Source: Cyanobium sp. Tous-M-B4
GTDB lineage: Bacteria; Cyanobacteriota; Cyanobacteriia; PCC-6307; Cyanobiaceae
Direction of reading: 5' to 3'
NCBI RefSeq assembly: GCF_024345395.1
Contig: NZ_JAGQBA010000001.1
Span: 186,001-250,000, forward strand
Length of the DNA stretch: 64,000 nucleotides
Shown here: piece by piece, positions 1,018 through 15,069 of the stretch
How positions within the stretch are numbered: position 1 is the first letter of the stretch
How the letters are laid out: the number at the start of each line of letters is the position of its first letter
The notes under the pieces: generated by a model
What the model was told of the DNA's origin: nothing
Seen by the model: only the letters and a program-made list of their open reading frames with translations
Database searches by the model: none
Translations under genes and position numbers: made by a program

Positions 1018-2007
1018 GTGCGATTCCACATTCAGCAGGAAAGCGACATCCCGGCGTCGACGCAGCTCTACAACCAGATCTGCTTCGCCATTGCGGCCCG
1101 CCACTACCCGCCGGGGCACCGATTGCCCAGCACCAGGCAGCTGGCGATGCAAACAGGCCTGCACCGCAACACGATCAGCAAGGTGTATCGCCAGCTGGAA
1201 ACCGACGGCGTTGTTGAGGCGATGGCTGGGTCGGGCATCTATGTGCGCGACCAGCAAAAGCCGCGGGAAATCAAGCCGCCGCCGGGCCCCAGGGGCAGGC
1301 CTCTGCCGGACATCGACCGTCAGGTGCGCCAAAGCGTCGATGGCCTGCTCAATGCCGGCTGCACCCTGCAGCAGGGCCGCGACCTACTCACTCGCGAGAT
1401 CGACTGGCGCCTGCGCTGCGGCGCCCGGGTGCTGGTCAGCACCCCCCGCGAGGACATCGGCGCATCGATGCTGATCGCCGAGGAGCTCAGCCCCAGCCTG
1501 GAGGTGCCGGTGGAGGTGGTGCCGATGGAGGAGCTGGCGGCGGTGCTCACCGAATCCAACAACGGCACGGTGGTGACCAGCCGCTACTTCCTACAGCCGG
1601 TGGAGGAGATTGCCAAGCAGCACGGCGTGCGGGCGGTGGCCGTTGATCTCAACGATTTTCGCCACGAGCTCGACCTGCTCAAGGAGTTGCGCCAGGGCAG
1701 CTGCGTGGGCTTGGTGAGCATCAGCCCAGGCATCCTGAGGGCCGCCGAGGTGATCCTGCACAGCATGCGCGGCAACGAGCTGCTGGTGATGACCGCCAAC
1801 CCCGACACCGGCAGCCGCCTGCTGGCCCTGCTGCGGGCCGCCAGCCACGTGCTCTGCGACCGCCCCAGCCTGCCTCTGGTGGAGCAGAGCCTGCGCCAAA
1901 ACAGGGCCCAACTAATACGGATGCCGGTAGTGCACTGCGCCCAGAGCTACCTAGGCACCGCCACCATCGACGGCCTGCGCAAAGAAATCGGCCTACTGGC
2001 TCAGTGA
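1018..2007 (+). CDS. GntR-family transcriptional regulator
   Basis: The N-terminal 75 or so residues form a GntR winged helix: IPASTQLYNQICFAIAA, then PGHRLPSTRQLAMQTGLHRNTISKVYRQLETDGVVE, then a GSGIYV wing. The following 250 residues are not an aminotransferase (MocR) domain; they look like an alpha/beta ligand-binding part (stretches such as RVLVSTPRED and VVTSRYFL) that I cannot assign to a named effector domain. GTG at 1018 is the first start in frame, although the open frame continues upstream through residues that also look coding (YGGHQPNWPNPG), so a non-standard earlier start cannot be excluded. A TGTACA inverted repeat lies upstream and similar boxes lie at the Phd-PIN gene, which makes that gene a candidate target. 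Confidence 0.85.
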   Translation: MRFHIQQESDIPASTQLYNQICFAIAARHYPPGHRLPSTRQLAMQTGLHRNTISKVYRQLETDGVVEAMAGSGIYVRDQQKPREIKPPPGPRGRPLPDIDRQVRQSVDGLLNAGCTLQQGRDLLTREIDWRLRCGARVLVSTPREDIGASMLIAEELSPSLEVPVEVVPMEELAAVLTESNNGTVVTSRYFLQPVEEIAKQHGVRAVAVDLNDFRHELDLLKELRQGSCVGLVSISPGILRAAEVILHSMRGNELLVMTANPDTGSRLLALLRAASHVLCDRPSLPLVEQSLRQNRAQLIRMPVVHCAQSYLGTATIDGLRKEIGLLAQ

Positions 2008-2982: not shown

Positions 2983-5769
<2,787 letters not shown>

Positions 5770-9811: not shown

Positions 9812-9829
9812 AAAAGCGCGACAGCAGCC

Positions 9830-9949
9830 TCAGCCAGATCCCGTCTGGAGCTGCAGCAAAAGAGGCAGGGCGGCAATGCCAGGCAAATAGCGCCGGCGGT
9901 GGCGCACCATCGCAAAGTCGTCCAACTCAAAACCAACTACCCGGCACTC
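9830..9949 (-). other. In-frame open stretch directly after the ribH stop
   Basis: The ribH frame continues for 39 sense codons after its TGA at 9950-9952 and ends at TGA 9830-9832. The peptide reads like protein rather than random GC-rich shadow: VVGFELDDF, VRHRRRYLPGIAALPLLLQLQ. It has no ATG near its 5' end; TTG (ELDD) and an ATG (FAMV) are possible internal starts. It could be a small coupled gene, a readthrough extension of lumazine synthase, or the remnant of a lost gene. I do not recognise it. Confidence 0.3.
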
Positions 9950-10429
9950 TCAGTCGGGAATAGCCGCCATCAAGCTGCCCATCTCAAGGGCCTGCAAGCC
10001 GTAGTTCCAGCCCAGATTGCTCTTGATGCCGGCCCGCTCTAGGGCCTGCTGCAAAGTATCGGTCGTGAGCACGCCGAAGATCACCGGCACGCCGGTGTCG
10101 CGGGCCACGGCAGCCACGCCTTTGCTCACCTCGGCCACCACCACATCGAAATGGGGGGTGTCGCCACGAATCACCGCACCCAGGGTGATAACCACCTGAT
10201 AGCGACCGCTGGCCGCCAAGCGCTGGGCCACCAGGGGGATCTCAAAGCTGCCGGGCACCCAGGCCACATCCAGCTGGGCACTGGCATCACTGGTGTCAAC
10301 GCCGTGGCGCGAGAGGCAGTCGAGGCAGCCGCTCAGCAGCTTGCCGGTAACCAGGTCATTGAAACGGGCAACCACCACCGCGATACGCAGACCAGCAGTG
10401 TCGGTGAACCGCCCTTCAAAAATCGCCAC
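9950..10429 (-). CDS. ribH: 6,7-dimethyl-8-ribityllumazine synthase
   Basis: Penultimate riboflavin enzyme; condenses the ribityl pyrimidine with butanone phosphate in a 60-mer or pentameric shell. The 159 residues include [38 protein letters not shown] with the catalytic His, and [20 protein letters not shown]. It lies 3 bases downstream of psbZ on the same strand and is probably cotranscribed with it. Confidence 0.97.
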
Positions 10430-10753: not shown

Positions 10754-13510
10754 GTGGCCGCGGAAGCCGAACAACAGCTTTCGCTCACCGCCGCCCTGGG
10801 CCTGGCCGAGGAACCTCAACCCCAACCCGCACCCGAGCCCGGCCCAACCCGGCCCCGCAGCCGTCAGCGCCAAGCCGCCCCAGCTGCCCCACCGGCGGCA
10901 ACCACAGCAAGCTCAAGCCCCGACTCCGACCTGCCCCCCTGGCACCACCACAGCCTGGTGAGCGCCGAGCAGCTGACGCCGATGCTGCGTCACTACGTGG
11001 AGCTCAAGGCCGCCCATCCCGATCGGGTGCTGCTCTACCGCCTCGGCGACTTCTTCGAGTGCTTCTTCGAAGACGCCATCACCCTCTCGCGCCTCCTGGA
11101 GCTCACCCTCACCGGCAAGGAGGGCGGCAAAGCGGTCGGTCGGGTGCCGATGGCGGGCATTCCCCACCATGCCGCCGAGCGCTACTGCGCTGAGCTGGTG
11201 CGCCGCGGCCTCAGCGTCGCCCTCTGCGACCAACTGGAAAGCACCCCGGCCAAAGGCGAACTGCTCAAGCGCGGCATCACCCGGGTGCTAACCCCCGGCA
11301 CCGTGCTTGAAGAGGGCCTGCTGGCGGCCCGCCTCAACAACTGGCTTTGCGCCGTGGTGATGGAGGGCGCGTGCTGGGGCCTGGCGGTGGCCGATGTCAG
11401 CACCGGTGAATTCCGGGTCACCGAGCGGGCCGGCAGCGCCGGCTTGCACCAGGAGCTGCTGCAGGTGGAGGCCGCCGAGGTGCTCTGGCCCGCCGCCACC
11501 GCCACCGCCAGTGCCAGCGCCAGCCCCAGCCCCAACTGGTGCCCCGAGGCCCTGCGGCTGACGCCCCTGCCCCGCACGCCCTTTGAGGCACCGGAAGCAT
11601 CCGCCACCCTCAAGCAGCGCTTCGGCCTGGCCAGCCTCGATGGCCTGGGGCTCGGCGAAGCGCCGCTGGCCCTGCGCGCGGCGGGCGGCCTGGTGGCTTA
11701 CCTCGACGACACCAGCCAGGCCCGGGTGCCCCTAGATCCGCCCACCACCTGGCAGGCGGGCGACCAGTTGGTGCTCGATGCGGCCACCCGCCGCAACCTG
11801 GAGCTCACCAAAACCCAGCTGGGCGGCAGCGTGCACGGCTCCCTGCTCTGGGCGCTGGATCGCACGCACACCGCCATGGGCGGCCGCTGCCTGCGCCGCT
11901 GGTTGCAGGCGCCGCTGGTGGAGCGCGCGGCGATCCTCGAGCGTCAGGGCGGCGTCAGTGAGCTTGTGGCCAATCGCGGCCTACGGCTGGCCCTGCGCCG
12001 CCTGCTGCGCCCGATGGGCGACCTGGAGCGCCTGGCGGGCCGGGCCGGCGCCGGCAGCGCCTCGGCCCGGGATCTGGTGGCCCTGGCCGATGGACTGGAG
12101 CGCCTGCCCCAGCTGGCTAGCCAGCTCGCCCAAGCCAGCAGCGCCCCCCTGCAGGCCCTGGCCCGCCCCTGGCCCGAGCTCGACACCCTCGCCGCCGACC
12201 TGCGCCACACCCTGCTCGACACCCCGCCCCTCTCCCTCACCGAGGGCGGCCTGATCCACGACGGCGTTGATCCAGACCTCGATGAGCTGCGCAACCAACT
12301 CGACGACCAGGACGCCTGGCTGGCCCTGCAGGAAGCCGAGGAGCGCCGGCTCAGCGGCCTCGCCAGCCTCAAACTCCAGTACCACCGCACCTTCGGCTAC
12401 TTCCTAGCGGTGTCCAAGGCCAAGGCGGCGGCGGTGCCACAGCACTGGATCCGCCGCCAAACCCTGGCCAACGAGGAGCGCTTCGTCACCCCAGCCCTGC
12501 GCAACCGCGAGGGCGCCATCCAGCAGCTCAAAGCCCGCGCCGCCCAGCGCGAATACGAACTGTTCTGCGGCCTGCGCACCCGGGTCGGCGAGCAGGCTGC
12601 CGCCATCCGCACAGCTGCGCGCCTGGTGGCCGAGCTCGACGCCCTCGGGGCCCTAGCCGAGGTGGCAGCCACCAGCGGCTACTGCTGTCCCGAAATCACC
12701 GACCCCGCCAGTCCCGAGGCCCGCCTGCTGCAGATCGAAGCCGGCCGCCACCCAGTAGTGGAGCAATTGCTGGTGGAAGAGCCCTTCACCGCCAACAGCG
12801 TGGTGCTAGGTGCCATCCCCGAGGCAGCCCCCGACTCCGATCCCCGCCCCGACCTGATCATCCTCACCGGCCCCAACGCCAGCGGCAAGAGCTGCTACCT
12901 GCGCCAGAGCGGCCTGCTGCAGCTGATGGCCCAGATGGGCAGTTGGATTCCAGCGGCTTCGGCGCGCCTGGGCATCGCCGATCGGATCTTCACCCGCGTC
13001 GGCGCCGGCGACGACCTGGCTGCCGGCCAGTCCACCTTCATGGTGGAGATGGCCGAGACGGCCAACATTCTTCACCACGCCACGCCACGCTCCCTGGTGT
13101 TGCTCGACGAGATCGGCCGCGGCACCGCCACCTTCGACGGCCTCTCGATCGCCTGGGCCGTGGCCGAGCACCTGGCCACGCCAGCCGAGCGCGGCGGCAT
13201 CGGCGCCCGCAGCATCTTCGCCACCCACTACCACGAGCTCAATGCCTTAGCCGACCAGCTACCCAACGTGGCCAACGCCCAGGTGCTGGTGCAGGAAACC
13301 GGCGACGCCCTGGTGTTCCTGCACCGGGTGGCCTCGGGGGGCGCCAGCCGCAGCTACGGCATCGAGGCCGCCCGCCTGGCCGGCGTACCCGCCGCGGTGG
13401 TGCTGCGCGCCCGCCAGGTGCTGGGCCGCATCGAAGCCAACAGCGTCGTGCGGGTGGATCAGGAGCCAGAGGAGGCGGAAGTCGGGCCAGACGGGGCGCT
13501 CGCCGCCTGA
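10754..13510 (+). CDS. mutS: DNA mismatch repair ATPase MutS
   Basis: MutS recognises mismatches. The 918-residue protein has an unstructured N-terminal stretch of about 75 residues rich in Ala and Pro, then the mismatch domain with [10 protein letters not shown] (the Phe-x-Glu motif is kept), connector, lever and clamp domains, and the ATPase with Walker A GPNASGKS near residue 706, ST...[18 protein letters not shown] near 785 and THYHEL. GTG at 10754 follows an AGGAAAGG ribosome site at good spacing. Its last 52 bases overlap the end of cobH on the other strand. Confidence 0.97.
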
Positions 13511-14166
13511 AGCCAGGCAGCCCGCAGCAGGGCATTGCAGGCCGCTGCCACCAGTCCAGCTCCGCCTTTGGAGCCCTCGAGCCGCATATGCACCAGGCCA
13601 CTGTCAGCCAGGTGACGCTTGCTCTGGGCCACCCCCACAAACCCCACCGGCATGCCGATCACCAGGGCCGGCGCCGGCACCGCTTTTGATGCCACCAGCT
13701 CCAGCAGCACCTCCAGGGCCGTGGGGGCGCTGCCGATCAACACCACGACTGGCTCACCCTGCCCGGCCAGCGCCGCCGCCATCCCGGCTGCCGTGCGCGT
13801 GGAACCCTCCGGGGCCGCGGCGGGGGCCCAATCGAGCACGCTGCGCACCTGATTGGCGAAGGTGCGCCGCGCCATCGGCGCCACCGCCGCGGCCGCCATT
13901 GCCGTGTCCGTGAGGATTGGCGCCCCAGCAGCCAGGGCCGCCAAGCCGGCGCCACAGGCGGTCGCGGGGCAAACCAGATCGGCCGCCAGGCCCGGATCGC
14001 CGCTGCTGTGAATCAGGCGCAGCAACACGTCCTGCTGCAGGGGGCTGAGCGCCGCCAGCGCCGCCGCCGTGCCCGGCAACTGCCGGATCAGCCGCAAGCT
14101 CTCGCAAAAAATCGGGTGATCCAGGGAAGGCACTCCACGAAAGGCCGCAGTTTCAGCATTACTCAT
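13459..14166 (-). CDS. cobH: Precorrin-8X methylmutase
   Basis: Moves a methyl group from C11 to C12 to form hydrogenobyrinate or the cobalt form, in the corrin pathway; cbiD of the same pathway is at 46-47 kb. From ATG at 14166 the protein has 235 residues, with SLDHPIF near the start, the active-site His of RLIHSSGDP at about 53, and [16 protein letters not shown]. Longer readings through 14256 would translate a 14-base tandem repeat, whose length is not a multiple of three, so I take that region as leader. The tail overlaps mutS. Confidence 0.9.
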
Positions 14167-14277: not shown

Positions 14278-14310
14278 TGTACAGGTTGTACAGCATGTAC
14301 GGTCTGTACA
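14278..14310. promoter_or_regulatory. Four TGTACA boxes at exact 9-base spacing
   Basis: TGTACA starts at 14278, 14287 and 14305, and TGTACG at 14296; each neighbouring pair also makes a TGTAC-N5-GTACA type inverted repeat. The array ends 15 bases before the Phd-PIN start and lies 112 bases before cobH on the other strand, so it must overlap the promoter or leader of the former. The same spacing is found at the GntR gene (852-866) and inside the Phd-PIN gene (14592-14606). I infer a GntR or Phd binding site; the sequence alone does not decide which. Confidence 0.65.
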
Positions 14311-14325
14311 GATTCGTGCACACCC

Positions 14326-15069
14326 ATGCCTGACACCACCATGGGCGTCGAAGCGGCCAGGCGCCGCCTACCGGAACTGCTGGAGCGAGCGGCGGCCGGC
14401 GAACGAATCGTGATCCAGCGCCACCGCACCCCCATGGCCGCCCTGGTGCCGCTGGCAGGGCGGGCACCGGTTGATCCCCTGCTCCGCCAACGTCAAATCC
14501 AGAGCCTGATGGCCCTACAAGGCAGCGGCAGGGGCTGCTGGGATCCCCAGCAACGCCAACCAGCCCGGCCAGCACCACCACCGCCAGCTTTTGTACAACC
14601 TGTACAGAACCTGCCCCACACAGAGGCCTTCAACCCCCGCCTGCTAGCCCACGGCTCCCGAATCGCCCTCGATGGCACCGCGCTGGTGGCCTTTCTGGCA
14701 GACGCCCAGGGCGCCGGCAAACACCTCGAGCCACTGATGCAGGGAATAGGGGCTGGGTATTGGATTGGGGTTGTTAGCAGCTTGAGCCTGATGCGAGTGC
14801 TCGAGGGGCCCCTGGCCCGGGGCGACGAGGCCCTGGCCCAGCGCTACATCCAGGCCTTCGAGAATCCCCACCACTGGCAACTGATCCCCAGCGATGGCGC
14901 CATCGCTGCTGCGGCCGTGCGTCTGCGCCGCCAGGAACCCCAGCTCGACGACAGCTGCGCCATCGAACTTGCCACTGCCATCCAGTCCGGCGCAGTGGTG
15001 CTAGTCACCGACCATCCGGCCCTGGCCCAGACTGGGCTGCATCCGGTGCTCAGCGCCCTGCGGATCTGA
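14326..15069 (+). CDS. Fused Phd-type antitoxin and PIN-domain toxin
   Basis: One 247-residue chain holds two parts that are normally separate genes. Residues 5-45 (TTMGVEAARRRLPELLERAA and IVIQRHRTPMAALVPL) match the Phd/YefM DNA-binding antitoxin fold. After a proline-rich linker, residues 112-245 look like a PIN ribonuclease: LDGTALVAFL with Asp116, VLEGPL with Glu160, QLDDSCAIELATAIQSGA with Asp208/209, and VTDH with Asp229, so the acidic site seems complete. The usual antitoxin region that wraps the toxin could be the linker. ATG at 14326 has a weak ribosome site; ATG at 14341 is an alternative. A TGTACA array precedes the gene and a further copy lies in the linker. holA follows after 16 bases. 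Confidence 0.78.
   Translation: MPDTTMGVEAARRRLPELLERAAAGERIVIQRHRTPMAALVPLAGRAPVDPLLRQRQIQSLMALQGSGRGCWDPQQRQPARPAPPPPAFVQPVQNLPHTEAFNPRLLAHGSRIALDGTALVAFLADAQGAGKHLEPLMQGIGAGYWIGVVSSLSLMRVLEGPLARGDEALAQRYIQAFENPHHWQLIPSDGAIAAAAVRLRRQEPQLDDSCAIELATAIQSGAVVLVTDHPALAQTGLHPVLSALRI
14592..14606 (+). promoter_or_regulatory. TGTACA inverted repeat inside the Phd-PIN linker
   Basis: Two TGTACA boxes 9 bases apart encode residues 89-94 (FVQPVQ), between the antitoxin and toxin parts. The match to the boxes before the gene is exact in spacing and core. It may be an internal operator, or a relic of a time when the toxin half had its own promoter. Confidence 0.5.

Follow-up and report, generated by a model that had tools for sequence, protein, structure and literature searches.

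Paired TGTACA boxes at a fused Phd-PIN gene of Cyanobium: a candidate antitoxin operator and dispersed copies of its word

In the usual view, the repressors of toxin-antitoxin modules work chiefly at the promoter of the module itself. The parS sites of ParABS systems are few, palindromic, biased towards the origin and located partly inside open reading frames (ORFs). The closest described relatives of the locus reported here are YefM-YoeB and Axe-Txe, in which paired TGTACA palindromes lie right before a Phd/YefM-type gene that is autorepressed, with TGTACA as the core of the YefM and Axe operators at a centre-to-centre spacing of 12 bp (PMC7730913, PMC4803016). Two-gene modules that carry a Phd and a PIN domain, in the same order as here, are described in PMC2701414, and VapB46 (PDB 6jqy) is an antitoxin of this kind. 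A toxin and an antitoxin are also united in one cyanobacterial polypeptide in Slr1999 of Synechocystis 6803, a HicA-HicB fusion that is reported to have no fused homolog (PMC4963859). REP and REPIN elements are short palindromes situated outside genes (PMC3116915).

We have examined a window of 64 kb, which is the whole stretch of DNA analysed here (positions 186001-250000 of contig C1 in a Cyanobium genome of 2.74 Mb), and describe an array of four TGTAC(A/G) boxes before a fused Phd-PIN gene. The locus shares with YefM-YoeB and Axe-Txe a protein of the Phd/YefM fold encoded directly downstream and paired TGTACA boxes just before the gene, but the spacing is 9 bp (with up to four boxes) or, at a second antitoxin gene designated phd-B, 8 bp, and not 12 bp. 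Furthermore, the toxin is a PIN protein and not YoeB, antitoxin and toxin form a single ORF instead of two genes, and the word is also dispersed. Unlike two-gene Phd-PIN modules, the two domains share one frame in Cyanobium and relatives, although they are separate in a Pseudomonadales metagenome-assembled genome (MAG; locus L214) and in the second module of genomes G001, G004 and G015. The domains are unrelated to those of Slr1999, and the fusion occurs at 14 distinct loci, whereas Slr1999 is reported to lack fused homologs. The dispersed copies resemble REP elements in being short palindromes outside genes, but they are few and their form goes along with a toxin-antitoxin gene. They resemble parS in number, palindromic structure, origin bias and partial location inside ORFs, but their sequence is different and the genus has no ParB_N match.

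Among the literature matches listed, no title or opening of an abstract dealt with the word, with dispersed antitoxin sites in Cyanobium or with a Phd-PIN fusion. The putative operator word of a toxin-antitoxin module is spread over the chromosome, is apparently kept at the DNA level in ftsY, and tends to occur in the form that matches the module carried by each species. This poses a testable question, namely whether antitoxins have a function at the scale of the chromosome (at boundaries, in the origin domain or at transcript ends) or spread their binding words selfishly, and the two forms in sister species amount to a natural swap experiment.

The box array and the fused Phd-PIN gene

The array occupies positions 14278-14310, with TGTACA at 14278, 14287 and 14305 and TGTACG at 14296, all in exact 9-bp steps as the initial annotation had described. 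It ends 15 bases before the ATG of the Phd-PIN gene at 14326 and lies 112 bases from the start codon of cobH at 14166, and both of these previously given distances were confirmed. The cobH gene (precorrin-8X methylmutase; 13459-14166, minus strand; Pfam CbiC, 4.6e-50) shares the gap with the array. We propose the array as the operator of the Phd-PIN gene, based on its sequence and on the same gap and spacing in relatives.

The fused gene (14326-15069, plus strand) encodes 247 amino acids, with a Phd/YefM-type part at residues 5-43 (14338-14454, plus strand; Pfam and fold match) and a PIN part at residues 114-228 (14665-15009, plus strand; Pfam, alignment and fold match). In the window protein, PhdYeFM_antitox was matched at E 4.1e-5 and PIN at E 0.16, both below the curated cut-offs, while PF02604 (Phd) was matched by 9 of 9 orthologs at E values of up to 0.1 and PIN by six. 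A structural model with a mean pLDDT of 63 has fold matches to VapC PIN toxins and to the N-domain of VapB46, and the N-terminal part matches VapB46 (PDB 6jqy) in sequence (E 0.0014) as well as in fold. All 10 of the 10 named loci inspected have the gene as one uninterrupted ORF, and the fusion is probably a derived state, since the two parts are overlapping separate genes in the Pseudomonadales MAG. A VapC-type PIN fold has four acidic residues; of the candidate positions here, D116 and E160 are invariant in nine aligned rows, and the two that come later are not conserved in the row most distant from the others. A PADLOC run found nothing, neither the fused protein nor the Phd of L214 had a plasmid match, and a search for viral relatives found none. 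A link to plasmids or viruses was rejected; the two plasmid PIN relatives carry other antitoxins and have no TGTACA pair in the stretch examined.

A 9-bp pair is present in the gap before the fused gene at 13 of the 14 distinct loci, where the flanking DNA has diverged; this count treats L203-L206 and L210 as the same records as loci already counted and leaves out L213 (broken), L214 and L215. Six loci have four boxes (G000, G005 with one box changed, G012, G006, G007 and G014), and the others have two boxes each except for Vulcanococcus L208, which has a single box only. The second box of the pair is inexact in G024, and in G013 and L211 the pair is found approximately 220-250 bp upstream of the fused gene. 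Unfused modules are also preceded by the word: in the Pseudomonadales MAG only 4 bp separate the pair TGTACAGATCGTACA from the start of phd, and in G020, which belongs to a different genus and has separate frames for Phd and PIN, CGTACATTGTGTACA lies 40 bp upstream of the Phd match. Four other Phd-type genes have no TGTACA pair upstream, one of them judged on only ~52 bp. Pairs thus precede both fused and unfused Phd genes, and the published operators of YefM and Axe have TGTACA at their core, which makes autoregulation by Phd the best reading of the four-box array.

In the mechanism that we propose, Phd dimers would bind each 6-bp TGTACA palindrome and sit side by side along the 9-bp array, thereby repressing the Phd-PIN gene; this repression is modelled on YefM and Axe at their paired TGTACA sites. 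The same paired word, dispersed over the chromosome, would be read by the same Phd-PIN protein. In species with a separate Phd-B/PIN-B module, dispersed words in the 8-bp form of that module appear, and in species that have lost a module its words tend to be few, presumably because they decay after the loss. We consider it fairly probable that the array is the operator of the fused gene and that the dispersed paired word is read by the protein encoded there.

The statement that no other pair with this spacing occurs in the window has to be amended, given that a motif scan recovered a further exact pair at 14592-14606, inside the fused ORF, where it encodes VQPVQ in the linker between the two parts. 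This DNA word is present in 3 of 9 aligned genes (own included), whereas the peptide FVQPVQN or FVQPVQH is found in seven, four orthologs keeping the peptide without the word. Across the linker (14587-14610) and its orthologs the peptide has outlived the DNA word, as might be expected had a former in-frame palindrome been taken into service as a linker. A different Phd subfamily of the genus (L070, L072 and L073) has no TGTACA pair upstream, and the L073 gene is preceded by palindrome-like CTGACCAG/CTGGTCA words, perhaps its own operator.

Copies of the word and Phd-type modules in the genus

In the 64-kb window, TGTAC-N5-GTACA with at most one mismatch had five matches as compared to 0.24 expected and a maximum of two in 100 shuffles. 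In the genome-wide scan suggested at the outset, the exact word occurs in five places, all on contig C1, versus one for the reversed control (whole genome, 2,743,075 bases). With one mismatch the scan gave 26 matches, hardly more than the 22 of the control, and the plain word with one mismatch was dropped as a genome-wide search word. A longer word, TGTACAGNCTGTACA, allowed up to two mismatches, had 17 matches in the whole genome and none for its reversed control. These matches include C6:66437 and C7:1078; four lie at the fused gene, and two on C3 were set aside as they are without flanking arms. Copies outside the fused gene are situated in intergenic gaps and inside open frames such as ftsY. 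An RNA-type hairpin was rejected as an explanation of the symmetric consensus arms, and a structured RNA is not supported, because pairing of the arms within sites is no better than that of shuffled arms.

Among 60 genomes, the 9-bp word with at most one mismatch is present in 13 of the 16 genus genomes (own included) and in 11 of the 44 outside, with up to 15 sites per genome within the genus and at most three outside it. Its reversed control gave 0 in all 16 genus genomes and 1 in three of the 44 others. A second form, TTGTACANNTGTACAA, is in an 8-bp register and occurs 5 times in G012, 3 in G001, 12 in G004 and 8 in G015, as opposed to 0-1 times in the other 12 genus genomes and 0 throughout for the control. 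Exactly these four of the 16 genomes have a match to the PIN-B toxin at E <1e-50, although the match is whole only in G001; it stops short of the C-terminal part in G004, is split in two in G015 and, in G012, misses the first 59 residues. Weaker PIN-B matches (E 4e-13 to 8e-4) were found in five more genomes, including a broken remnant in the window (9827-9973, minus strand, beside ribH; 65% identity, two stops) that appears to be a sign of a lost second, 8-bp type toxin-antitoxin module. In G001, G004 and G015 an 8-bp site is followed, at a distance of 44-52 bp, by the start of an intact phd-B of 67 residues; phd-B is truncated in G012, yet five 8-bp sites are kept there.

The fused gene is whole in 8 of the 16 genomes, which have 5-15 9-bp sites each, or 4-13 in a hand count that leaves out the sites at the fused gene. 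The eight genomes in which it is absent or broken, four of them only 82-88% complete, have 0, 0, 0, 1, 1, 2, 3 and 7 sites. The exception with seven is G015, where the fused protein was matched only at residues 101-199 and 216-247. With thresholds chosen after seeing the counts, Fisher tests gave 0.0014 for at least five 9-bp sites against a whole fused gene and 0.00055 for at least three 8-bp sites against PIN-B. Using thresholds of 5 (9-bp) and 2 (8-bp) sites, only three and two tree-independent pairs were available, respectively, of which on average 2.5 and 2 agree and none is opposite, so that co-occurrence cannot reach significance on the tree. Judged from the genomes compared, the box types go with the Phd-type modules and not with GntR. 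Points that count against a Phd reading are G015, with seven sites and no match found to residues 1-100, the single box of L208, the 8-bp sites of G012 beside a truncated phd-B and its changed ftsY copy, the small number of independent pairs on the tree, the incomplete genomes among those without a whole fused gene, the 12-bp spacing of YefM sites and the Phd and PIN scores below the curated cut-offs.

Positions of the dispersed sites

Gap classes were assigned with a codon-usage gene caller made for this analysis. Four weak, armless sites (L023, L024, L046 and one in L180) were dropped before counting, and neighbouring matches less than 300 bp apart were merged, reducing 105 rows to 86. The resulting 78 non-operator sites are an uneven sample, in which orthologous spots are counted once per genome and several genomes (such as G006, G007, G012, G014 and G015) contribute only part of their sites; 19 are inside ORFs and 3 are unclear, and the rest are divided among same-direction (28), convergent (22) and divergent (6) gaps. 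Against background shares of 8.1% (same-direction), 2.2% (convergent), 4.4% (divergent) and 80% (ORF) of bases, convergent gaps are favoured and divergent gaps are not. Same-direction gaps, in which promoter and gene end look alike, could hold promoters. In G014 a second four-box 9-bp array lies in the lepA gap (L175, 2135-2167), far from the Phd-PIN gene.

Several gaps are occupied in either form; the calls cover the genomes listed here and gene names were read from the proteins. Between arfB and mazG, the 9-bp form is found in G000, G005, G010 and G014, and the 8-bp form takes its place in G004 and G015. At the gyrB gap, G010 carries the 9-bp form and G012 the 8-bp form. In the ribH gap the 9-bp form is found in G007 and G010 and the 8-bp form in G001, G004, G012 and G015, the 8-bp site being the putative phd-B operator itself.

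The copy inside ftsY is kept as a strict word in 7 of the 16 genomes, within an otherwise scrambled linker. In these seven genomes the Val codons of the word are GTA in 14 of 14 cases, whereas in the remainder of the 16 ftsY genes GTA accounts for 17 of 618 Val codons. Changes of the middle codon (Pro, Ala, Ser) are confined to positions that the DNA word leaves free, and fourfold sites are 58-76% identical between the word-bearing clades. These features point to selection on the DNA of the word. Altered copies are found in G001 and G011, both without the fused gene, and the G012 copy has one changed base despite the presence of the fused gene.

Distances to the origin were calculated for two complete genomes. 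Sites are on average 341 kb from the skew-inferred origin in G005 (664 expected; P 0.0036), which was placed by the skew minimum of the window's genome and coarse skew, and 295 kb in G004 (807 expected; P 0.0001), for which ftsY and coarse skew gave the origin. The genome of the window has its skew minimum at about C1 270-274 kb, and the ftsY site is ~10 kb away.

Other possible readers of the word and possible sources of its copies

The initial annotation had envisaged a small regulon in which the GntR-family protein encoded at 1018-2007 (plus strand, 329 amino acids; Pfam GntR, 2.2e-13) binds the boxes and controls its own gene together with the toxin-antitoxin gene and possibly cobH. The shared word is real, since the 9-bp pair claimed at 852-866, TGTACAGCCCGTACA, was recovered in the infC-GntR gap (sequence and alignment of relatives), 151 bp before the GntR start, but the role given to GntR did not hold up. 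Of the 16 genomes of the genus, 14 encode the protein at 91-100% identity, and nine of these have a pair before the gene in one of the two forms: 9-bp in G000, G005, G007, G010 and G014, and 8-bp in G001, G004, G012 and G015. Nearly the same protein is accompanied by either register, and GntR is kept in five genomes (G002, G008, G009, G011 and G013) with neither form in the ~260 bases before its gene. In addition, the palindrome TGGTGGCCACCA lies nearer to the GntR start (984-995, from the alignment of relatives), with a core kept with few changes across the 14 GntR-bearing genomes, and is a likely and better candidate for the protein's own site than the TGTACA pair. Nor do sites that are over-represented in convergent gaps, under-represented in divergent gaps and in several cases within ORFs readily suggest a small regulon of promoters. 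We regard GntR as a very improbable reader of the boxes. A tRNA-Gly (gcc) gene follows at 2029-2100 on the minus strand.

For the dispersed sites two accounts remain, namely binding sites kept at gene ends or in an origin domain, or a REP-like repeat derived from the operator word. In the latter account, which we hold to be rather unlikely, a small, mobile or formerly mobile palindromic repeat of ~36 bp settles at the ends of genes and, keeping the frame, within linkers, and the Phd-PIN array is one expanded copy with only an indirect link to the protein. The sites do behave as a palindrome present in several copies, most of which lie outside genes (of 78 non-operator sites, 19 are in ORFs), and many intergenic copies are surrounded by extended symmetric consensus arms, about TCCTGAATTC ... 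GAATTCAGGA by eye. These arms and the in-frame copies in ftsY, cobD and polA would fit such a repeat, as would the excess in convergent gaps, the copies beside Rpn/DUF2887-like ORFs in an island of G004 and the four-box array at lepA in G014. Conversely, copies are few, a genome having at most 15 in the 9-bp form and at most 12 in the 8-bp form, the same gaps are occupied in distant species by either form, the ftsY copy looks kept at the DNA level, no empty-site pair proving insertion was found, and the form follows the Phd module, with the pair also standing before unfused Phd genes elsewhere. The shared positions, the switch of form and the ftsY codons favour kept sites. Were the kept sites to be origin-domain (centromere-like) sites read by a protein other than Phd, the proximity to the skew-inferred origin in G005 and G004, the ftsY site near the skew minimum and the lack of ParB would be in agreement. 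No ParB_N protein was found in 16 of 16 genus genomes (five of them <90% complete), while the control was positive in Synechococcus elongatus, and a ParB/parS system was rejected on this ground. Against a non-Phd origin reader, 8 of the 10 merged loci of G005 are on one arm, and since the Phd-PIN gene itself is near the origin, copies that spread locally would give the same picture as an origin bias. Five genus genomes have only 0-1 9-bp sites, so the sites are not required. We give this account little credence. As to reading by Phd-PIN itself, its boldest form would make a Phd-type module a chromosome-wide site reader that marks the origin-proximal chromosome via some ten to twenty operator copies in a ParB-less genus, with a change from a 9-bp to an 8-bp module carrying the same-gap sites along; we think this unlikely.

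In an exact scan of viral contigs, 1 of 82 sites (80 loci listed) precedes a Phd-type ORF, as opposed to 0 of 80 for the controls, and the viral-contig sites are probably mostly chance. The one site, TGTACAGACTGTACA at 4467-4481 of an unrelated viral contig (L283), lies ~9 bp before the likely GTG start of its ORF. Loci L160 and L180 (G004, 1519-1553 kb) together form an island in which numerous sites of both the 8-bp and the 9-bp form accompany VapC-like genes and several Rpn/DUF2887-like ORFs; the Rpn/DUF2887 and VapC-like names, like those of cobD and polA, are our own reading of the proteins. Some Rpn-like ORFs of this island have a site on each side, ~1.1 kb apart.
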